Shown here: in pieces, positions 13,742-37,781 of the stretch
How positions within the stretch are numbered: the first letter of the stretch is position 1
How the letters are laid out: each line of letters begins with the position of its first letter
Source: a virus
DNA length: 37,781 nucleotides
Strand: one strand, 5' to 3'
IMG/VR virus record: IMGVR_UViG_3300046389_000412
Span: 1 to 37,781 of that record
Position numbers and translations under genes: made by a program
Notes under the pieces: generated by a model
Told to the model about the DNA's origin: nothing
Seen by the model: only the letters and a program-made list of their open reading frames with translations
Databases searched by the model: none

Positions 13742-15028
13742 ATGTCAACAAAGACAACAATTAAACAAAAGAGACAAAGAATCTCTACAAAAACACAAGA
13801 AGTAGAAGTAAAAATCGAAGAAACTTCAAAAGATGAAAGCCTTTTAAATTCCCCAGAACCACTTGAAGATTTTGATTGGGAAGCTTACGAAGCAGATTGT
13901 CCAACTAAATTTAGAAAACCAAACCCACATGTCAAGGCACCTCCTGGTGTTAAAGTTTATAGTAGGGAAGCTTATGCCCAAGAATTACTAGACTTAATGG
14001 AGGGTTATTCATTAACTTCTAATACACAATATAATTTAAAACTAGGTTCAAGTTACACCGGAAAAGTTTACGGAGTAGACTCAGACTGGGCATCCATCGA
14101 CGTAGGTTATAGAGAACTAATATATGTAGACTTATCTAGAGAAACCACAGAAGTAAGAGAATTATTACAAACAGGCGTAGAAGTAGACGTACAGTTAATA
14201 GCTGATAAATCTATGAACGTCAAAAGGTATATGGTGGGATCAGTTACCGCTGGTCTAAAAACAAAGGTGGTAAGAGAAATTGTAGAATCTATAAATGAAG
14301 GAAATACAGCGTATAGTGGAACAGTTATTAAAATGATTCCAGGCGGAGGATATATTGTACAAGTCCAAGGCGTAGATTGTTTTATGCCAGGTTCCTTAGC
14401 TGGAGTTAATAAACTACACGACTTTGAATCTATTATTGGAACAGATATGTATGTAGTTCCAGTAAGTTATTCTGAAGAAAAAGGAACTGTTGTAGTTTCT
14501 CATAGAGCTTATTTAAGAGCCTTAATTCCTAATAAGATTAAAGAAATACAGGAAGATATTTCAGTAGAAAGAACAGGCCATGTTACGGGTTCCGCAAAAT
14601 ATGGTGTCTTTGTAGAATTTGAAGGATGTTTAACGGGCATGATTCATGTTAATGATTTAGATAAAGAAACTGCAAAATTACATAGAGAAAGAACATTAGA
14701 ACCAGGTTCTGAAATTAATTTTTATGTAAAAGAAGTTATTAACGAAAGAAAAATAACTCTTGTACAGGGTTCTCCAGCTGAAAAGAAAATAGACCCATGG
14801 GAAGGTATTTCACAAAGATATAATAAAAAGACAGAAGTTATCGGAAAGGTAAAGTCTACTAAAGATTATGGTCTATTTGTTGAGGTTGAAGAAGGTGTAG
14901 TAGGTTTATTGCATGTTTCAGAATTTCCAGATAATATTGACATTAAAGAAATATCTAAAGGAGCCGATATTACGGTTCAAATTATTAGAGTTGAAGAAGA
15001 TACTAGGAAGGTATTTCTTAAATTATAA
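13742..15028 (+). CDS. Ribosomal protein S1-like protein with four S1 repeats
   Basis: The 428-residue product contains four S1 RNA-binding OB repeats, at about 100-165, 187-255, 275-343 and 362-428. The last two are canonical (TGHVTGSAKYGVFVEFEG … GMIHVNDL; IGKVKSTKDYGLFVEVEEG … GLLHVSEF). The first two resemble the ribosome-binding repeats of bacterial bS1 (GVDCFMPGSLAG). The N-terminal PLEDFDWEAYEADC recalls the start of Bacteroidota S1 as I remember it. Cellular S1 usually has six repeats, so this is a shortened form; the first ~95 residues are charged and Pro-rich. It could enter host ribosomes or bind phage mRNA and change initiation preference. It is flanked by its own promoter-like box and a terminator, and sits among baseplate genes. 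Its effect is inference; S1 homology is clear. Confidence 0.92.
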   Translation: MSTKTTIKQKRQRISTKTQEVEVKIEETSKDESLLNSPEPLEDFDWEAYEADCPTKFRKPNPHVKAPPGVKVYSREAYAQELLDLMEGYSLTSNTQYNLKLGSSYTGKVYGVDSDWASIDVGYRELIYVDLSRETTEVRELLQTGVEVDVQLIADKSMNVKRYMVGSVTAGLKTKVVREIVESINEGNTAYSGTVIKMIPGGGYIVQVQGVDCFMPGSLAGVNKLHDFESIIGTDMYVVPVSYSEEKGTVVVSHRAYLRALIPNKIKEIQEDISVERTGHVTGSAKYGVFVEFEGCLTGMIHVNDLDKETAKLHRERTLEPGSEINFYVKEVINERKITLVQGSPAEKKIDPWEGISQRYNKKTEVIGKVKSTKDYGLFVEVEEGVVGLLHVSEFPDNIDIKEISKGADITVQIIRVEEDTRKVFLKL

Positions 15029-15136: not shown

Positions 15137-16435
15137 ATGAACAACATCAATAACTCTAAAATATTGGAGAATGCTCTTATCGGGGTAGAATTTGAATTTT
15201 ATTCAAACAAGTCCATAGACGATACTGCCAAAGAATTAGCTAGTCTTTTAGGTAAAAAGATTAGAGTAGAATCTAAGGCACATAGCGATTTTGAAGTTAC
15301 CAGAGATGAGTTCAAAATAGAACCAGATATGAGTGGAGGTGAAAAACTTATGGAACTTGTAACTGGTGCACAACCATATCATTCAGGTAGAATGATGATT
15401 ATCAAGGTATGTAAATGGATAGAAGAAAACGGATATACTAATGATAGAAGTTCTATTCATTTAAATCTTTCATTCGATACTAGTAAAATAGAAAATAAGC
15501 ACAGAATTTCTAAAATGAATGTTCTTAAATTTATTTTAGATTTTAAAGAAAGTCAAGTGTTTAAGTTTTTTCCAGAAAGAAAAGATTCAGCCTACGCTAA
15601 ATCAATTAAATTTGTTTTACCAAAATCTGATACTTATTTCTTTGATGGTTTAAATATTACTCCTAGTAATTTTACATTTCCAGATTCTAAATATTATGGA
15701 GTTAACTTTGAAAAAAGACACAAAAACTATTTAGAATTTAGATATTTGGGTGGTGCTGATTGGGAAAAGAAAACTTCTAAGATATTGCAAATGTTAGAGC
15801 TATTTATATCTCAATTATGGGATAGCACTTCAACAACTTCATTTACACCGTTAAATGCAATAGAGCTTAGAAAAATTCTTTCTAAAAATGAAAAAATTAT
15901 AAAAAGTAGATCTGATTGGAGAAATATCGATAAGGGATGGAATGGCAAGGTAAAACTAACCGTTGATCTTAAAGACAATGAAAAAATAATAGATTTACAT
16001 TGGCCTAATATTAGAGAAAGAGTTTTGACGCTTTTCACACATGGCGAATTAAATACTGGGCACATTAACTATGATTCTGACAATGGGACAATTCAAGTTG
16101 AGGGAGGTAATCTTCCTTATTGTGTGGATTTAAGAGGATATGAATTTGTTAGGTGTTTTCTTAGAGGCGAATTTACAGAATGTGATTTCTTTAGTTGTGA
16201 TGTAAACGGATCAGATATTCATTCATCTAATTTTTATCAATCTAGTCAGGTAAATTCTTCTAAATTAGAAAGTTCATACGTCCATCAAACATGTGTATTA
16301 AAGGATTGCTACATATATGGTAGTGGTATGATGAAAGGTAAAATGGAAGGTGGTATATTTAGAGATGGAAAATACGATAAGAAAACGGCGCAGTTTAGCA
16401 CTGAAACAGAAAAAATACTTTATACAGAAGTTTAA
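15137..16435 (+). CDS. Amidoligase-like enzyme with pentapeptide-like C-terminus
   Basis: The 432-residue product matches the signature order of the Amidoligase_2 family (glutamine-synthetase fold), which joins amino groups to carboxylates with ATP. It has G16-V-E-F-E-F (metal-binding acidic pair), E73-L-V-T in the second acidic strand, S106-x-H108-L-N, and FEKRHKNYLEFRYLGGADW (~191-209), with the Glu-Phe-Arg strand typical of the C-terminal catalytic half. Residues ~330-405 change to Ser/Cys/Asp-rich short repeats (CFLRGEFTECDFFSCDVNGS) resembling a pentapeptide-type beta-helix, an unusual fusion. The substrate is unknown; candidates are peptidoglycan, a virion protein or a small peptide. 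It lies between the S1 gene and the gp25/gp6 wedge genes behind its own promoter-like box. Confidence 0.7.
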   Translation: MNNINNSKILENALIGVEFEFYSNKSIDDTAKELASLLGKKIRVESKAHSDFEVTRDEFKIEPDMSGGEKLMELVTGAQPYHSGRMMIIKVCKWIEENGYTNDRSSIHLNLSFDTSKIENKHRISKMNVLKFILDFKESQVFKFFPERKDSAYAKSIKFVLPKSDTYFFDGLNITPSNFTFPDSKYYGVNFEKRHKNYLEFRYLGGADWEKKTSKILQMLELFISQLWDSTSTTSFTPLNAIELRKILSKNEKIIKSRSDWRNIDKGWNGKVKLTVDLKDNEKIIDLHWPNIRERVLTLFTHGELNTGHINYDSDNGTIQVEGGNLPYCVDLRGYEFVRCFLRGEFTECDFFSCDVNGSDIHSSNFYQSSQVNSSKLESSYVHQTCVLKDCYIYGSGMMKGKMEGGIFRDGKYDKKTAQFSTETEKILYTEV

Positions 16436-25107: not shown

Positions 25108-28100
25108 ATGAGCGCTAGCAATTCTATATCACATTTACTCGAACAGTTTCTTGAATTAAACACTAATTCTTTAGAAACTTTTGAGCGTATCAATGAGGCT
25201 ATTTCTACAGATAAAGAAACAGTTACAATTGACTTATTTGACAATCGCACTGGGGAAATGACAGCGATTCAAATTCCAGCGTTTGGATTTTTGAAAAGAG
25301 AAATTGAAAGAATTGATAAGAATTTAACTTCTATAAGCGGATTAGACACATCAAGCGCTAATGTAAGATTAAAAGATGGTTCTTATAGAAGAATACATAC
25401 TTCAAAGTTAAAAGGCCCCTCAGCCCCTATTACTAGTTTAGCAACCCCTAAAGAATTTAACACTAAATTAAATGATTTCTTTGAGGATTTTTTAAACCCA
25501 TTATTAACTATTAATCTAGATGTAAAGGGTCAAATTCCAGTAGACACGGAAAGAGTTTATACAGAAAGATTTATTTTTGAAAAAGATCATGTTTCTTCTA
25601 CGGAGGCTTTTGACGAAATATTTAAAGGTCAAAACGATATAAACTATTCTAAATTTATCTCTAAAATAAAAGAAGATGGATTAAAATATAGAATAGATGC
25701 GGAAACAGTTGACATGCCGATTAGATCTATTCAATACAATGGAGAATTAGATGTATTAAAGGTAGAAAATGTACAGAAAACCCTATTAGTAGATGGAATC
25801 ACTCAAACTAAAACGGTTAAAGTATACACTTTAAATAAATTAACATATTCAGATTCTAATAAGGAGATGAAAGACACTGAATCTCTTAAAGTAGGAGATT
25901 CACTGGTCGTGAATACAAAGGAATATAATACTAGATATAAGGTTTCTTCTATTGACTCTTCTACTTCTCAGGTAGAATTATCATTAATGGAAGGATATGC
26001 ACCTATAAAAATAGGAGCAAAAGCCTTAAGAATTTATAAAGATATTGACGCATCAGTTTCAATAGACGTTAAAGTCGGGTTTGACGAAAGGCAAGTTGTC
26101 TTTGTAAAACCAATCGATCCTATTTCTAAAATACCTGCTACTGATTTTTCACCAGGTATTGCGTTTTATTCTAATGAATTAACTATTCAAAATGAGGATG
26201 GCATAGTTACTACACTTGCAAAATATTATAAAGAAGAAGTTGCAGACTTTGGTCAATTTATCAAAGCTCTTAAAGTAGATTATATTCCGCCAGCATCTGA
26301 GGGTCTTATTCCAGATTCACCAGAAGTTGAAGTAGATAACTTTAAAGTTACTCAGATTAATAAGCATTTAACAGATAATGCTAGTGTTGAAAAAGTTAAG
26401 AAGATTAAGGCAGATAAAGTAAAAGCCAAAGAAGTAATTAAGAAATTAGACACTACTATTAAAAAGAAGAGAAAATTAATTGCTACTAAAAAGTTTTCTT
26501 CTAAGATTGAAAGAAATAGGGAAAAGAATGAATTAGTTTCTTTAGTAAGAGAAAAAGAGGCAGAAACAAAGGTATTTTCTTCAAGCGTTAGCGAAATAAA
26601 GGCTATTGCGGAATCTAATGAATTACCAAAGGTAACTCCAAAATATAGAGTTAGAGGTTTTTGGTCTATTCCAGACGCTAAAAAAGTTGGTGATGAAATT
26701 TCACAAGAAGTAGTTCAGTTCGTAGCAAGATATAGATACATTTCTGCGACTGGTAAAACTTCTGTAATAGAACAAATTAAATTTAATAAAAAGACTGCTG
26801 CTTTTTCAAATTGGGTTGAAGTTAAAGGACCTATTAGAAAAAGAGAAAAGCAGGCCGATGGAGGTTATAGATGGATTATAGAATCTGAAGAAGATTCACA
26901 AGCTATTAATTTTAATTCAATTGATTTACCAATTCAACCTGGAGAAAAGATAGAATTAATGGTAAAATCTATTTCTGAAGCTGGTTTTCCACAAACACCA
27001 GTTGAATCAGAATGGTCTGAGATAATTACTATTCCATTCCCAGAAGGAGAAATCGCAACAGACGGAGCTAATACACTAGTTAATCAAAACGATTTAGATA
27101 ATGTTAAGGTAGAAATCAACGATGATTTAGAATCTCAAGGTTTATTTACTCACTTAGACGATGGATTTACTGCAGGAGATACTTATTACGCACACCAAGC
27201 TGATACTGTTGCTTCAGGATTTTTAACAGGAGAACAAACACCCATTAGTGTATATGATAAACTATTAGAATTACAAAATCAATTAGAAAGATTACAAGCA
27301 CAGGTTTCTGGAGCGGTTGGTGAATTGCAAGTTAAAATTATAGATGAAGATGGAGACGTTACTTTAGTTAAAAACAATTCTACTGCTAAAATATTCGCAG
27401 GATATTATGTAGATGATGCTCCTACAGGAGAAACTAAAGGCTATATAGTAACTAAAAACTTTAAGATAGAATTACATAATACTAAGGCATCCGATCTTGA
27501 ATTATGTGCCAGAATAGTAGGAGACTTAAAACAGCCTGCATATATTTCTACTTCTGAACAAGAATTTGGATTAGGTATAATTGACCTAAGTACAGGAAAT
27601 CTAAAACAAGCGGCTGATGCGACACCCGATTCAATGGTGTCAAACGATTCTTATTATACACAAGAAGCACGATACGATCAAGTCCCTGTTGTTTATCAAA
27701 ACTTAACCGGAGATGCGAATTCATATAATCATTTTGCAGATTCTCCAGATCAATCTACGCAGTTAAATGGTCAATTTATTTATTCTAGATTTAAAAATCT
27801 AGCAAATAATGGTAATTTATATTCAACTACAAACCCCGATACAGACGCAACAAGAAAGGCAAATTTATCAGGTGTAACAACTGCTGAATATGGATTATCA
27901 TATGCGGTATCTGGTACTACTGGGATTCAAGATAGAACTCACTTAAGAGATTTTAGCTCTGCCAGTTTTACAGCTATCGCTACAAATACTACTAATCTAG
28001 GTGGTAGTGATGATTTTATTTGGAATGGTACATTTAATAATTTAGGTGCTAGTGGTACTACACCTGATGTAGTTTCCATTTCGCAATTAGGTGCATCTGA

Positions 28101-28878
28101 ATATGATAGTGGTCTTTTCTTATCAAAATTTCATCCACTAATTCAAGACGCCAGTGGTGATGAAGTAAATTCCGGAATGACTTTAGATGAAATTATTTCA
28201 ACAGGCGCAGTAGCAATGCCAAAATATGCGGTAAAAAGATCTAACGATCAGCTAGGAGGCAAATTACAAACCGCATATCAACCTCTTACAATTACCTTTA
28301 GAGATGGTAGCGAATCTGGACCTAAAGATGATGACGGCACGGTTATAGCTAGAAAATCTATTAAAAACTCATTTACAGAGGAAGACAAATATTTATTAGG
28401 AGGTCTTTCTTGTGGATCTTTCTTATATCTTTCACCTATAAATCAAGAAAGTTTATCAGTAGATGGTCCTACGAAATATGGTAAAAAAATAGTAGAAGGT
28501 GGAAGCCAAAATGCGATTTCAGTAGATATGGTATTTCAGTATAGAATGACCGATTACTTTGGAAAGAACTCAACAGGTAAAGGTAGATTAGGTGGAATAT
28601 ACGGAAACACATTCTCAAACTTGACATATTCTAAGAAAATAGGACTAGATATTATTGATACTTATAAAAATGAGTTTAGGTTTGACGTTGAAGTATACGC
28701 TAAATACAGAGCAGTTGGAACAAATAAGAATAGTATTAATAAGGTAATGCTTACTAAATACCGTGCTTCAGGAAGTGGAATAACTAACTGGTGGTGGAAT
28801 AGAAGAAGATTCTTTACCGGTTATAATGACTTCTATTCATCTAGACTTTACGACTTTGACGCTCGCCCATATAGGTAA
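25108..28878 (+). CDS. Very large multidomain virion protein with FN3-like domain
   Basis: The 1256-residue product is unrecognised overall. The N-terminal ~400 residues are mixed (SHLLEQFLELNTNSLETFER first). Residues ~410-505 form a highly charged coiled coil (KVKKIKADKVKAKEVIKKLD). Residues ~512-648 look like a fibronectin-III-type domain (KYRVRGFWSIP … EKIELMVKSISEAGFPQTPV). A second short coiled coil (KLLELQNQLERLQAQVSGAV) lies at ~715-740. The rest is beta-rich, ending in an aromatic/basic segment (NWWWNRRRFFTGYNDFYSSR). It starts one base after the preceding stop, so it belongs to the same unit. Probably a baseplate-peripheral or long-fibre-base protein. Confidence 0.78.
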   Translation: MSASNSISHLLEQFLELNTNSLETFERINEAISTDKETVTIDLFDNRTGEMTAIQIPAFGFLKREIERIDKNLTSISGLDTSSANVRLKDGSYRRIHTSKLKGPSAPITSLATPKEFNTKLNDFFEDFLNPLLTINLDVKGQIPVDTERVYTERFIFEKDHVSSTEAFDEIFKGQNDINYSKFISKIKEDGLKYRIDAETVDMPIRSIQYNGELDVLKVENVQKTLLVDGITQTKTVKVYTLNKLTYSDSNKEMKDTESLKVGDSLVVNTKEYNTRYKVSSIDSSTSQVELSLMEGYAPIKIGAKALRIYKDIDASVSIDVKVGFDERQVVFVKPIDPISKIPATDFSPGIAFYSNELTIQNEDGIVTTLAKYYKEEVADFGQFIKALKVDYIPPASEGLIPDSPEVEVDNFKVTQINKHLTDNASVEKVKKIKADKVKAKEVIKKLDTTIKKKRKLIATKKFSSKIERNREKNELVSLVREKEAETKVFSSSVSEIKAIAESNELPKVTPKYRVRGFWSIPDAKKVGDEISQEVVQFVARYRYISATGKTSVIEQIKFNKKTAAFSNWVEVKGPIRKREKQADGGYRWIIESEEDSQAINFNSIDLPIQPGEKIELMVKSISEAGFPQTPVESEWSEIITIPFPEGEIATDGANTLVNQNDLDNVKVEINDDLESQGLFTHLDDGFTAGDTYYAHQADTVASGFLTGEQTPISVYDKLLELQNQLERLQAQVSGAVGELQVKIIDEDGDVTLVKNNSTAKIFAGYYVDDAPTGETKGYIVTKNFKIELHNTKASDLELCARIVGDLKQPAYISTSEQEFGLGIIDLSTGNLKQAADATPDSMVSNDSYYTQEARYDQVPVVYQNLTGDANSYNHFADSPDQSTQLNGQFIYSRFKNLANNGNLYSTTNPDTDATRKANLSGVTTAEYGLSYAVSGTTGIQDRTHLRDFSSASFTAIATNTTNLGGSDDFIWNGTFNNLGASGTTPDVVSISQLGASEYDSGLFLSKFHPLIQDASGDEVNSGMTLDEIISTGAVAMPKYAVKRSNDQLGGKLQTAYQPLTITFRDGSESGPKDDDGTVIARKSIKNSFTEEDKYLLGGLSCGSFLYLSPINQESLSVDGPTKYGKKIVEGGSQNAISVDMVFQYRMTDYFGKNSTGKGRLGGIYGNTFSNLTYSKKIGLDIIDTYKNEFRFDVEVYAKYRAVGTNKNSINKVMLTKYRASGSGITNWWWNRRRFFTGYNDFYSSRLYDFDARPYR

Positions 28879-33717: not shown

Positions 33718-36700
33718 ATGAACATAAGAATCAAAGAACTTTTTAAGAGTGATCTAGATCCTAACAGCAATGAATGGTGGTCAAAGGATAAAATTGATAA
33801 AATCAATTTCAATTTTAATCTTCTTAGAAATGGAGGTCCATCAGGTCCATCTGGATTAGAAGGTCCTAATGGAGTTGAAGGGGATAAGGGTGAAACGGGA
33901 ACTGAAGGAAATCAAGGTCCATTTGGTTTTCAAGGAATTGTAGGTCCTTCGGCTGTTGGAAGCTGGAAAAGTACAATGCTCAACGGCGTTGATGAAAATG
34001 GAGATAATTATACTCAAAAAGTAATTTGGCCAGCTGTTCCGATTGGAGTTGCTGGTATGGCTATTCCTGTAATTGGTACTAATTCTAACTTAGACACTAA
34101 TGGAGATTATTTAAGTCCATGGTATGGAACAACTGCAACGGCACCTATAAACCTTTCTTCTAATGGAGCTTTTAATGTTTTAACAAATGGAGCAACAAGA
34201 GCAAATAACGAGGATTTCCATGAATATTCTTCTTTATCATCTTTTTCATTAGATAGTGATGATAGTTCTCACTACTTTAATTTTGGAATAAGTAATGCAT
34301 CTGATCTGGCCCTTGGAACAGCGTTCAATTCTGTTTTCGAAATAAAGCCCAACGACGCGTCTTCCGGTTATAGATATGAAATAGACTTTCAAAGGAATAT
34401 TAATTTTAATTTTATTTCTAATCTTGGAAATATTAATACTTTAGGTGAAAACTCTGTAATAAATTATCCTTTATATGTAGATGCAACTCAACCCGGTAGA
34501 AAAGTAGAATTTGTAGTAGGAGGCTTAAAATTTAATCACCAAGCTAATTTAAATAATGTATTAAAATCAAATGATAACGTAGGAACTGTTACTTGGGAAA
34601 ATGTTTCAAGTTTATTTTCAGTGTTACCTATAGGATCTATTGTTAAAATACCTTCTACTTCTTTTAATTCTTCTAATTTTTATACCGATAATGCAACTGT
34701 TACAGATTTAAGTACAGGTGGAACTACTAACATTAGAACAAACTTTGGAGCAGGTAGGCCAGATGGAATGTTTGGCGCATGGTATTTATGTAATGGTAGA
34801 AAATGGGGAGATGGCGGAATTATATCATATGATACCCCTAATTTAAATGGATTTCATTATTCATTTGGAGTGTCATCTACGTCTAATCCTGGAAAAAGCA
34901 TATATGGAGGATCTGAAACTTCTCTTTCAACTAATACTAGCACAGGTGTTATTACACAGTCTCATCAATCAGGGTCTCAAAACGGAAGATACCTAAGTGA
35001 TATTCAAAATAATTACGGAGATGAAAATCATATCGTATTTGGAGAACATGTTAGTATTATTTTTTTAGGCAGTTATGGATATGAATGGGGTAATTTAGAT
35101 TCTACAGCTGAAACAACAGACTTTTCAGCAGGGTACCATGAATATGTCGATTCCCCTGATCAAGATGGTTTTGATATTTCAGCAAGGTATGCAGCTTCTC
35201 TTAATCCTGTAACGCGACAGTGGACTGCTGATATAAGCGGAGGTACTTCAATAGATACCTTTTGGCTAAGTGACGCTTCTTTTACAACCGATGGAACTAG
35301 CAATCCTTCATCTTCGACAGGTATTAGAGTTTATGAAAATGGAATTGAAGTTGATGACGGATGGTTTTTTAGAGAACATTCGGCAGTACCTGGCGGAATA
35401 GCAAGATATTATGAAAATGGCACAGGATTCACAGGTTTAAAACATGTGTTCGAACCCCAACAGAGTTGGATGTGGTATGGAGAAGGTCTATGGGATGTTG
35501 ACGGAAATTCAGTTGATATTTTTCAAACAACATATAATAATGAACCCGTTTCTCTAGCAACCATACAAAATAGTAATAATCCTGTTTTTGTTGAAATGCA
35601 TGTGTCTAGTGATTTTCAAGGAAATCCTACCGCTAATAGTCAAAATTCAAACACTAACGATCCTGATTTTACAGATTATGAGTCAAATTCTCATATATGG
35701 TCAGTTAATTCTTCTAATCAGATTGTAATTCCTACAACTGGATGGTGGAGAAGCGTTACATATACAGATGCCTTTACGGGTAGTTATAATATATCCTTAC
35801 CTGCCGGTTATCAATTGACTTATAGAAAATATTGGAATAATTCAGACAACGAATTTAAAGGCGCTACGATTAAAGATAATTATATTCCTTATAATAGGAC
35901 ATGGCACCTAGCTAGTGGTGCAAATTCAAGTAGTGCAGCATGCGATACATCAGGAACAAATTCATTAACATTCTATGCTAGAGACGCCTATGGTACATTT
36001 GCAGGAAATACAGTTAGTTTATCTTTTTCTAATTTTTCTGCTCAAAATTTTAACTTTATTACAGATCAAATATACGTAAGAGGAGATGCATCTCATTCGT
36101 CTAGTACAACCTCCCTAGCTGACACTGGAAAACACCCTCTAGTCCTAGTAAAAGACGGTCCTATAATAGGGGAGCAACCAAACATAGTTATCGCTGATTC
36201 AGTTTCTTCAAAATATAGAGAAATTAATTCTAATTCTATGGCTCCTACTTTATCAGATTGTAGTGGAGGCTCTACGCCTAGTGAGTATACATTTGATTTC
36301 ACTAGCATTAGTCCGGATATGGGAACTGGTTCCGGGACCACAGTCGCCAATTTTAATTGGAATGGGCCTAATTTAAGTACTTCTGATTTTACACTCAGCA
36401 ATATACCAGGTACCCTTTCAATGGAGGTAAGTAGTATAAGCAACTTTAATAATAACGTAACAATTAGTATAATGCCGACTCAAAGCGCCGGAACCCATCA
36501 AACGATTGATCTTGATTTTAACGGTCCTTATCCGATTACAACAAGCTCAGACACTGATATTGATTTTATATGGGGACCATGTCACGTAGAAGGAACATTA
36601 ATAACTATGTCAAACGGTAAATTTAAAAAAGTTGAAAACTTACAAATAGGAGATAACCTATCTTCATACGAAATAAATGGATTAAGCGAAAGCGGAGAAT

Positions 36701-37047
36701 GGAGAAATTTTAAGGTAAATAAACTAATTAAAGAGACCTCAACTGTTAAAGTTGTAAACATAAAAAAGGGAACACATGCATCATATAGGGATATTAATAA
36801 AGGTCTAACTAAAATAACAGGTGAACACCCTGTTTTAGTAAAACACAATAATATAATTCAATTTAAGCAGGTTAGTGAAATATCTTTAGGAGAATTTATA
36901 TATGTAAATGAAAAATGGACCAAGGTTTTCAGTAACGAACATGTAAAAAAGACATCTAATACTTATAGTATAGATGTTGAAGCAGATGATGTCTATATAG
37001 CTGATGGTGTACTTTGTCATAATCAAGAAGAAGCAAAAACCGAATAA
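33718..37047 (+). CDS. Collagen-like tail fibre with collar-like domain and C-terminal Hint domain
   Basis: The 1109-residue product has a modular fibre layout. Residues 25-36 (KIDKINFNFNLL) form the N-terminal motif shared with the next fibre. Residues 40-78 are 13 Gly-x-y collagen-like triplets. Around 345-385 lies a phage tail-collar-like segment (PDGMFGAWYLCNGRKWGDGG then YDTPNLNGF). Beta-rich sections follow to ~950. From Cys955 to Asn1102 is a Hint domain: block A C955-HVEGTLITMSNG with LQIGD, block B T1034-G-E-H1037-P, and block F YSIDVEADDVYIADGVLCHN (1083-1102). Only seven residues follow, the first Gln1103 rather than Cys/Ser/Thr, so protein splicing is unlikely, but self-cleavage at either end is possible. 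The fibre role is well supported; what the Hint domain does here is unknown. Confidence 0.88.
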   Translation: MNIRIKELFKSDLDPNSNEWWSKDKIDKINFNFNLLRNGGPSGPSGLEGPNGVEGDKGETGTEGNQGPFGFQGIVGPSAVGSWKSTMLNGVDENGDNYTQKVIWPAVPIGVAGMAIPVIGTNSNLDTNGDYLSPWYGTTATAPINLSSNGAFNVLTNGATRANNEDFHEYSSLSSFSLDSDDSSHYFNFGISNASDLALGTAFNSVFEIKPNDASSGYRYEIDFQRNINFNFISNLGNINTLGENSVINYPLYVDATQPGRKVEFVVGGLKFNHQANLNNVLKSNDNVGTVTWENVSSLFSVLPIGSIVKIPSTSFNSSNFYTDNATVTDLSTGGTTNIRTNFGAGRPDGMFGAWYLCNGRKWGDGGIISYDTPNLNGFHYSFGVSSTSNPGKSIYGGSETSLSTNTSTGVITQSHQSGSQNGRYLSDIQNNYGDENHIVFGEHVSIIFLGSYGYEWGNLDSTAETTDFSAGYHEYVDSPDQDGFDISARYAASLNPVTRQWTADISGGTSIDTFWLSDASFTTDGTSNPSSSTGIRVYENGIEVDDGWFFREHSAVPGGIARYYENGTGFTGLKHVFEPQQSWMWYGEGLWDVDGNSVDIFQTTYNNEPVSLATIQNSNNPVFVEMHVSSDFQGNPTANSQNSNTNDPDFTDYESNSHIWSVNSSNQIVIPTTGWWRSVTYTDAFTGSYNISLPAGYQLTYRKYWNNSDNEFKGATIKDNYIPYNRTWHLASGANSSSAACDTSGTNSLTFYARDAYGTFAGNTVSLSFSNFSAQNFNFITDQIYVRGDASHSSSTTSLADTGKHPLVLVKDGPIIGEQPNIVIADSVSSKYREINSNSMAPTLSDCSGGSTPSEYTFDFTSISPDMGTGSGTTVANFNWNGPNLSTSDFTLSNIPGTLSMEVSSISNFNNNVTISIMPTQSAGTHQTIDLDFNGPYPITTSSDTDIDFIWGPCHVEGTLITMSNGKFKKVENLQIGDNLSSYEINGLSESGEWRNFKVNKLIKETSTVKVVNIKKGTHASYRDINKGLTKITGEHPVLVKHNNIIQFKQVSEISLGEFIYVNEKWTKVFSNEHVKKTSNTYSIDVEADDVYIADGVLCHNQEEAKTE
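33835..33951 (+). repeat. Collagen-like Gly-x-y repeat (13 triplets)
   Basis: Residues 40-78 of the first fibre read GPS GPS GLE GPN GVE and on to GIV GPS without interruption, the periodicity of a collagen-type triple helix. This would trimerise the fibre near its attachment end. Confidence 0.9.
36580..37023 (+). other. Hint (intein/Hedgehog-type) autoprocessing domain within the tail fibre
   Basis: This 148-residue segment has the invariant Hint features: an N-terminal nucleophile Cys955, a block-A Gly-Asp (IGD), a block-B T-x-x-H (Thr1034, His1037), and a C-terminal His-Asn (1101-1102). There is no room for a homing endonuclease, so it is mini-intein-sized. The residue before it is Pro954, often unfavourable for thioester formation in inteins, and the +1 residue is Gln. 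This is closer to bacterial intein-like (BIL) domains than to a splicing intein. Confidence 0.85.
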
Positions 37048-37106: not shown

Positions 37107-37781
37107 ATGCCAATACCTATTAATTTAAAGCAGATTTTACAGTCAGATACTCAGCAAGAGAAACTAGATAAAATCAATTATAACTTCGATCAGCTTATTG
37201 CTAATGGAGGAGGACCTATGGGTGCTACTGGTTCAATTGGCGAAACCGGTGCACAGGGTGTTACTGGAGATCAAGGTGCACAGGGAACTCAAGGACCCCA
37301 AGGACCCCAAGGACCCGCAGATACAAGTACTAATTCACAATGGAAAGACGCTAGTACATGGGCAAACGGAAATCTTAGTATAAAAACTATTACACCTATT
37401 AACGAGGGTGACACTAATAATAATCCCCCAACATCAGTACTTATAGGATTTGCTTCTAACGACCCAGAATATAACGGAAATCAGAATTTAAGTAATTTAG
37501 GAGGAGTTTTAAACATTAACAAAAACTCTAATTATTCAACTTCAAATATTAGGTTATTTTCTGAAAAAAATTACGATCAATATTTAGATATTAATCTAGA
37601 CACTGATTCAGATACATCTACTAGTACTATAGAATTTAAGTTTAACTCTATTGTCGGCGACGGAGAATTTAATTATTCAGCTGATAAATTTAAAGTTAGT
37701 GATTTGTCAGGAAACGAAATGATGTCCATAGATTATTCTAATGGTGTTTTATTTACAGGCACTCTAGTGGCTTCTAGTTCA
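37107..37781 (+). CDS. Second collagen-like tail fibre, cut by the right edge
   Basis: An open frame of 225 codons runs from ATG 37107 to the end of the window without a stop. It begins MPIPINLKQILQSDTQQEKL, then residues 19-30 KLDKINYNFDQL match the N-terminal motif of the first fibre, and residues 36-71 are 12 collagen-like triplets (GPM GAT GSI GET …). After that come Asn/Ser/Thr-rich short strands (NQNLSNLGGVLNINKNSNYS) like a fibre shaft. It is a paralogue of the preceding fibre in its first ~75 residues; the shaft that follows shows no close match. Whether it also carries a collar or Hint domain lies beyond this window. Confidence 0.88.
   Translation, partial: MPIPINLKQILQSDTQQEKLDKINYNFDQLIANGGGPMGATGSIGETGAQGVTGDQGAQGTQGPQGPQGPADTSTNSQWKDASTWANGNLSIKTITPINEGDTNNNPPTSVLIGFASNDPEYNGNQNLSNLGGVLNINKNSNYSTSNIRLFSEKNYDQYLDINLDTDSDTSTSTIEFKFNSIVGDGEFNYSADKFKVSDLSGNEMMSIDYSNGVLFTGTLVASSS
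37212..37319 (+). repeat. Collagen-like Gly-x-y repeat (12 triplets)
   Basis: Residues 36-71 of the second fibre are uninterrupted Gly-x-y triplets. At DNA level 37290-37316 is three perfect tandem copies of CAAGGACCC, so the number of GPQ triplets may change by slippage in frame. Confidence 0.9.

Follow-up and report, generated by a model that had tools for sequence, protein, structure and literature searches.

Bacterial intein-like (BIL) domains have no nucleophile at position +1 and give mainly cleaved products, as stated in PMC7664689, and three papers place them in variable regions of proteins (PMC7664689, PMC5874633, PMC7765530). Hedgehog is described in PMC7664689 as using the first step of the reaction only. 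Among phages, the Peptidase S74 intramolecular chaperone is known as a C-terminal, self-releasing module of tail spikes and fibres, according to PMC10579305. The present analysis deals with a virus record of 37.8 kb (IMG/VR record IMGVR_UViG_3300046389_000412, positions 1 to 37,781; this whole stretch is referred to as the window) and with a collagen-like tail fibre gene near its end. As judged from the sequence and a predicted structure, the product of this gene ends in a Hint domain, the closest described counterparts of which are BIL domains.

Identification of the Hint domain

The original prediction had placed a complete Hint domain at the C-terminus of the fibre, pointing to Cys955, an IGD motif, T1034-x-x-H1037 and H1101-N1102, with Pro at position -1 and Gln at +1. 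All these residues and their coordinates were correct on re-reading, the IGD motif being found at residue 977, and the domain itself is well supported by its motifs, by significant PHROG and family-profile matches and by a predicted Hint fold. PHROG 38766 was matched by residues 955–1104 with an E value of 2e-12. When a seven-member family profile was compared with the sequences of the PDB, the first match was 2lwy, a bacterial intein-like domain (E 4.3e-12), followed by structures of BUBL BIL2 and gp41-1. The C-terminal segment alone, used as a single sequence, gave no significant Hint match in the PDB sequences. No Pfam model of a Hint domain or intein reached its gathering score: Hom_end_hint scored 16.0 bits with the whole protein and 20.8 bits with the C-terminal segment, for a cut-off of 32.1. 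The Pfam gathering score is a curation rule and not a biological feature, and by its fold and motifs the domain belongs to the Hint superfamily, with a horseshoe fold in the prediction, Cys at position 1 and the block B motif TxxH. The C-terminal intein motif of NCBIfam (TIGR01443) scored 16.5 bits against a cut-off of 15.6 with the isolated segment only and was not listed for the whole protein. The ataxin AXH domain was considered and rejected; its match to the segment had an E value of 8.6e-4, below the cut-off, its PDB match an E value of 0.09, and it was absent among the 50 fold matches listed. This match was treated as a resemblance of the N-terminal half of the Hint domain.

The structure of the domain was predicted with AlphaFold2 from 37 alignment rows, taken from the window and from viral contigs, and compared with known folds using Foldseek and VIA-align. 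The model had a predicted local distance difference test (pLDDT) score of 88.5 and a predicted template modelling score (pTM) of 0.83, and it overlays BIL and intein structures at Z scores of 16–19. The best match in the PDB was BIL2 of the BUBL1 locus of Tetrahymena (6y75; Z 18.8, root-mean-square deviation 1.9 over 139 aligned residues, 22% identity). Further matches were the BIL domain of C. thermocellum (2lwy, Z 17.5), Ssp DnaB (17.3), Mtu RecA (2in8, 16.9) and Hedgehog (1at0, 16.8). A Z score of at least 8 was obtained for 83 PDB chains, and the 50 entries among the matches listed are inteins, BIL domains or Hedgehog only. In the alignment with 2in8, model residue 11 (Cys955) lies opposite residue 1 and model residue 158 (Asn1102) opposite residue 440, while the alignment with 1at0 begins at model residue 11, opposite Hedgehog residue 258. 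Residue 1 of 2in8 and residue 258 of 1at0 are the catalytic Cys of the respective protein, and residue 440 of 2in8 is its catalytic Asn.

Conservation of the Hint domain in phages

Relatives of the domain were collected in two scans of viral contigs, from which the best 79 distinct loci of 176 relatives and the best 79 of 143 were kept, largely on the same contigs. Because the search patterns lay in blocks B and F, conservation in these blocks is partly by construction, which does not apply to Cys1 and the terminal His-Asn. Pooling led to 183 hits to the domain, distributed over 179 loci (designated by L numbers), and to 76 distinct segments. After removal of three helicase-intein rows (L090 twice, L091), 73 rows were left; they represent 70 distinct domains, with L052/L055, L028/L188 and L067/L068 as identical pairs and many near-copies among the others.

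Cys1 was present in all 71 evaluable rows and the C-terminal His-Asn in 72 out of 72. Such invariance at both ends speaks, as far as sequences can, for selection on the thioester-forming and the Asn-cyclising ends alike. Asp was found at the block F position in every one of the 72 evaluable rows, and in block B the Thr was kept in 71 and the His in 72 of the 73 rows, the altered ones being L168 (Ser) and L005_19 (Val/Tyr). Cys1 could not be aligned in L047, which lies at a contig edge, and in L005_19, a nearly stand-alone copy of phage NCTB; the same holds for block F and the C-terminus of L065, again at a contig edge. Pro at -1 occurred in eight of the 73 rows, namely the six rows of fibre orthologues, L114 and L141.

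The residues following the Asn fall into two groups: 52 rows have 3–36 of them (median 10), and the others at least 44, mostly about 100 (the counts of tail length and of +1 residues still include inteins; two rows with 407 residues after the Asn are presumably of this kind). None of the 52 short-tail rows ends at the Asn. Their +1 residue was Val in 17, Ala in 12 and Thr in 6 rows, followed by others; Cys, Ser and Thr together account for 7 rows and are missing in 45.

A tree was built from 73 rows, of which 68 are phage Hint domains and five are inteins. The window domain groups in it with those of its fibre orthologues (support 98/99), and the long-tail Hint domains form one clade (99/98). 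The split between phage Hint domains and inteins is weak (60/87), and the intein rows sit mostly on long branches. The long-tail clade (L067–L089 except L070, with L167 and L170) is characterised by a C-terminal part of about 97–254 residues behind His-Asn and, in most members, a Lys at +1.

The proteins that carry the domain were also considered. Five records of jumbo phages of Erwinia, Dickeya and Yersinia encode a protein of 477–480 amino acids that contains a long run of Gly-X-X and, at its C-terminus, a Hint domain ending 10 residues before the stop; its annotation is either virion structural protein or putative tail fibre protein. Phage NCTB (L005) has Hint domains in three genes of a single tail gene cluster. 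One of its copies, L005_19, is a nearly stand-alone frame of 161 codons with VTGY as block B and no alignable Cys1, and it ends in HN plus three residues. A Gly-X-X run of at least six was present in 15 of 43 short-tail parent proteins (longer than 250 amino acids and starting inside the locus) and in 30 of 316 other open reading frames (ORFs) of the same loci, a comparison in which both counts include near-copies and neighbouring fibre genes form part of the background. A tail or virion PHROG was matched outside the Hint domain in four of ten scanned parents (L045, L058, L163 and L168). Together with the domain of the window fibre, these similarly placed relatives suggest a trimming or chemical activation of fibre tips in some phages. 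A Hint search of 20 phage records gave none in LR756500, PAU and pT24 at an E value of 0.001, and two pattern scans of bacterial genome contigs revealed no close bacterial relatives.

Modular structure of the fibre

The first 50 residues are 88–98% identical across the related fibres L002, L014, L028 and L029. In bins of 50 residues, the window fibre is 70–100% identical to L002 up to residue 850, falls to 54% at residues 851–900 and to 24% at 901–950, and rises again to 88–92% over residues 951–1100. With L014, L028 and L029, identity is 88% in the anchor (residues 1–50), 52–66% in the Hint domain and 12–58% in the remaining bins. The ratio of nonsynonymous to synonymous substitution rates (dN/dS) of the Hint domain was 0.31 against L002 and 0.28 against L029, which in terms of sequence is purifying selection; the tip is far more diverged and the tail varies freely. 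Synonymous divergence from L002 is about 0.02 at residues 451–850 (35068–36267), about 0.16 at residues 41–450 and in the Hint domain, and about 1.2 in the tip; this unevenness suggests that recombination has made a mosaic of the fibre gene.

A scan with the N-terminal 82 residues of the fibre returned 51 loci, 18 of which end in a Hint domain (5 distinct), 26 have none and 7 are cut off. Twelve of the Hint-less loci have an anchor 59–83% identical to that of the window fibre (L202, L220–L223, L225, L226 and L230–L234), and the other fourteen are weaker matches, several of them confined to the collagen part. Nine of the twelve, corresponding to six distinct proteins, align from residue 1 to residues 843–876 and then continue in a different tip and no Hint domain; identity to the window fibre is 51.6% over residues 1–843 for L202 and 32–34% for the remaining eight. 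L231, L232 and L233 have mainly the first 400–463 residues in common with it. Because orthologues with the same stalk have other tips and lack the Hint domain, the tip (about residues 857–951) and the Hint domain look, from the alignments, like one exchangeable C-terminal cassette. A Hint-less allele with continuous flanks, that is with the same tip followed by the tail, was not present among the six distinct Hint-less orthologues aligned. The same stalk in these orthologues implies that the stalk does not need the Hint domain, and these nine loci weaken the proposal that the latter generally assists fibre folding as a removable chaperone.

The tip directly before the Hint domain was taken from a prediction of tip plus Hint based on 5 alignment rows, in which the Hint part was disregarded. 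Within this poor model (mean pLDDT 49.4), the tip consists of eight strands forming a block with pLDDT values of 53–90. Its best match in a fold search had a Z score of 8.0, with immunoglobulin (Ig) folds at about 6.4–6.8. An Ig-like beta sandwich is the probable fold of the variable tip, although the likeness of the model may reflect only a common strand arrangement.

Comparison with described systems

The BIL domain 2lwy of C. thermocellum, which we take to be of A-type, has in common with the window domain Cys1, TxxH, the terminal His-Asn, the lack of a +1 nucleophile and an adjoining variable region. The A-type features found in the fibre are H1101-N1102, Gln1103 at +1 and a position behind the most variable fibre part, the domain being optional among orthologues. 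In contrast to A-type BIL domains, those of the window type are located in phage fibres or other phage proteins, at the extreme C-terminus, and have Asp in block F where 2lwy has His. BIL2 of Tetrahymena BUBL1 (6y75, 6tmm), although closest in fold, belongs to a ciliate protein and is only 22% identical; it is followed there by additional domains.

Inteins of phage helicases and terminases display the same fold (via solved inteins) and both end motifs, but they differ in having Cys or Thr at +1 and His in block F (read by eye, one shifted by a residue). Of six such inteins, the five other than L093 were read to their C-termini (two in L090, and L091, L092 and L196); their hosts are annotated as helicase, P-loop NTPase or terminase; the two evaluable helicase-intein rows of the family alignment show His in block F and Cys at +1. 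The Hint domains of the jumbo phages of Erwinia, Dickeya and Yersinia (Alexandravirus and related) resemble the window domain in their C-terminal location behind a Gly-X-X N-terminal part, with 10 residues following the Asn in all five, while identity is 25–28% for the four that were aligned and +1 is Thr or Val. Unlike the S74 chaperone, the window-type Hint domain is missing from fibres sharing its stalk. No Pfam match to Peptidase_S74 was found in the window fibre at E values up to 1. L239, a collagen-like protein returned by the anchor scan, has a Peptidase S74 chaperone at its end and illustrates a different self-releasing terminus on a protein of this type; its likeness to the window fibre is confined to the collagen stretch and the adjacent residues.

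Proposed function and alternatives

The function that we favour, at slightly better than an even chance, is that of an A-type BIL-like Hint domain which would cleave itself off the fibre tip. Self-release is preferred because the residues of both half-reactions are kept, the +1 nucleophile is absent and a variable tip adjoins the domain, as in BIL domains. The fibre would fold first, after which Cys955 would attack the Pro954-Cys955 bond to give a thioester. Resolution of the thioester by water or another small nucleophile would shed the Hint domain and leave a mature fibre ending at the tip, near residue 954, and cyclisation of Asn1102 would remove the short C-terminal tail. Cleavage would be expected over splicing, the +1 residue being no nucleophile, and tip and Hint domain would be exchanged jointly as a single C-terminal cassette. 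We infer the occurrence, order and purpose of the cleavage from the sequence and by analogy.

Several points weigh against such a self-release. The first step could be slower because of the Pro at -1. The His of block F in inteins is replaced by Asp. No Hint domain was found in 26 of the 44 uncut loci of the N-terminal fibre scan, 14 of these being weaker matches, and the existence of Hint-less orthologous fibres means that release is not needed for the stalk. Finally, if N-terminal cleavage alone mattered, the Asn could be lost, yet it is kept in every evaluable row. The Hint domain of Hedgehog, for comparison, has lost its terminal Asn.

The same observations can be read in other ways. The Hint domain could be retained on the fibre, uncleaved or deprived of its tail only, and serve as a structural cap or binding domain. 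The Pro at -1 in the window fibre and its close relatives is in line with this, as is the better conservation of the Hint domain than of the tip, but the invariance of both ends is hard to explain without catalysis, and the nearly stand-alone copy of NCTB, with its altered block B and unalignable Cys1, shows that such residues can change; a retained cap is accordingly given a small chance. Slightly less probable is a covalent coupling, in which the Cys955 thioester would be resolved by an amine or hydroxyl of a host receptor, another fibre or a baseplate protein, comparable to Hedgehog and cholesterol. It would suit the position of the Hint domain at the expected distal tip, beside a variable tip domain, and the fact that the closest solved fold is BIL2 of the BUBL1 locus. 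No acceptor was identified, however, nor was any extra recognition region found beyond the Hint domain, and the invariant Asn would be superfluous; the invariance of both ends makes a Hedgehog-like device that relies purely on the thioester less likely. A bolder version, in which the fibre-terminal Hint acts as a chemical warhead whose Cys955 thioester would couple the tip to a nucleophile of the host surface and render adsorption irreversible, is rated lower still.

About as improbable as the general covalent coupling is a small-scale splicing, in which Asn1102 would cyclise first and the freed amino group of Gln1103 would attack the thioester, so that the seven-residue tail would be joined to the tip and the Hint domain excised. 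In its favour, all 52 short-tail rows have at least three residues after the Asn. Ligation without nucleophilic side chains is reportedly claimed in the title of a paper on a bacterial intein-like domain, listed among the references of PMC7664689, which was also counted in its favour. Against it stand a tail variable in both sequence and length, and the mainly cleaved products of BIL domains described in PMC7664689. An ordinary intein inserted near the end of the fibre gene is very unlikely indeed. Its fold and motifs would be identical in kind, but the Gln at +1, the C-terminal flank of seven residues and the Asp in block F do not fit, a domain of 148 residues is too small to hold an endonuclease, and the Hint-less orthologues aligned differ in their tip. 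A class 1 splicing intein was therefore rejected on account of the +1 Gln, the short tail and the lack of a continuous intein-less allele among those orthologues, in agreement with the original prediction, which had argued against a splicing intein.

Features of the fibre gene and its neighbourhood

The features of the fibre gene are collected in Table 1. The gene lies downstream of matches to baseplate hub, baseplate wedge and connector families. Collagen and tail-fibre PHROGs were matched at about residues 38–80, and residues 1–953, with the Hint domain removed, had no match in annotated phages at an E value of 0.001.

Table 1. Position of the fibre gene and its parts in the window.
Feature	Position	Strand	Basis or remark
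Collagen-like tail fibre gene, carrier of the Hint domain	33718..37047	+	ORF, 1109 aa
N-terminal anchor, residues 1–40, conserved	33718..33837	+	Identity among related fibres
Collagen-like Gly-X-X stretch, about residues 40–78	33835..33951	+	Pfam Collagen E 7e-4 (below cut-off); PHROG tail fibre families
Variable tip domain directly before the Hint domain, about residues 857–951	36286..36570	+	Partial model, identity drop
Pro954, residue -1	36577..36579	+	Sequence read
Hint domain, Cys955 to Asn1102 (148 residues)	36580..37023	+	Profile match, motifs, predicted fold
Cys955, predicted to undergo the N-S acyl shift (position 1 of the Hint domain)	36580..36582	+	Family invariance, structural alignment
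Block B, T1034-G-E-H1037	36817..36828	+	Motif read
Block F, Asp-Asp-Val-Tyr	36985..36996	+	Second Asp at the position of the intein block F His
His1101-Asn1102, predicted Asn cyclisation site	37018..37023	+	Family invariance
C-terminal tail QEEAKTE, seven residues, then stop	37024..37044	+	+1 is Gln1103

A second collagen-like fibre gene follows (37107–37781, plus strand) and runs off the end of the window; its N-terminal anchor, DKINYNFDQLIANGGGP, is related to that of the first fibre. Among the 55 loci found with this second anchor, three of which are cut off, none has a Hint domain. Anchors of the second-fibre type, as recognised by eye, are combined with a Hint domain in L045 and L163.

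The first 801 residues of the protein encoded at 25108–28878 have relatives in 31 annotated phage records. Their hosts are given as Prevotella (15), uncultured (6), Tenacibaculum (5), Sphingomonas (2, phage PAU), Chryseobacterium (2) and Flavobacterium (1). These relatives make a large Bacteroidota phage the likely source of the window, although the host recorded for PAU lies outside that phylum.

Three further genes on the plus strand were noted. The one at 15137–16435, within the run of tail and baseplate genes, has a Pfam Amidoligase_2 match of 25.4 bits (cut-off 22) restricted to residues 14–69. The gene at 13742–15028, flanked by structural genes, encodes a protein of 428 residues with S1 RNA-binding domains. 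The acidic protein encoded at 902–2326 contains, as seen by eye, two copies of a repeat of roughly 45 residues (around KxGETVYGENxRFPGRFKI).

Novelty and significance

No description of fibre-terminal Hint domains was found by title or start of the abstract among the literature matches listed, where subscription journals and bioRxiv are thinly covered. The passages on phage inteins that were met concern enzymes of replication, packaging and nucleotide metabolism, and others belong to reviews of BIL and Hint domains or treat S74-type chaperones. A search made only in passing for mass spectrometry of virions with a Hint-bearing fibre gave none (the term is absent from PMC6143709). Members of the family already carry a name in databases, such as 'large intein domain protein' in NCTB and 'Hint domain containing protein' in uncultured phages. 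The BIL-like Hint domain is thus of a known kind, and its placement at the end of a phage fibre is a new variant.

Natural orthologues that share the stalk and either have or lack the Hint domain could serve as a control, and the domain might be developed into self-cleaving tags for fibre ends. If the self-release proposed here is true, it would represent a second self-releasing C-terminal module of phage fibres, chemically unlike S74 and occurring in several phage groups. The conservation of both intein half-reactions would then mean a new maturation or coupling chemistry for phage tails.

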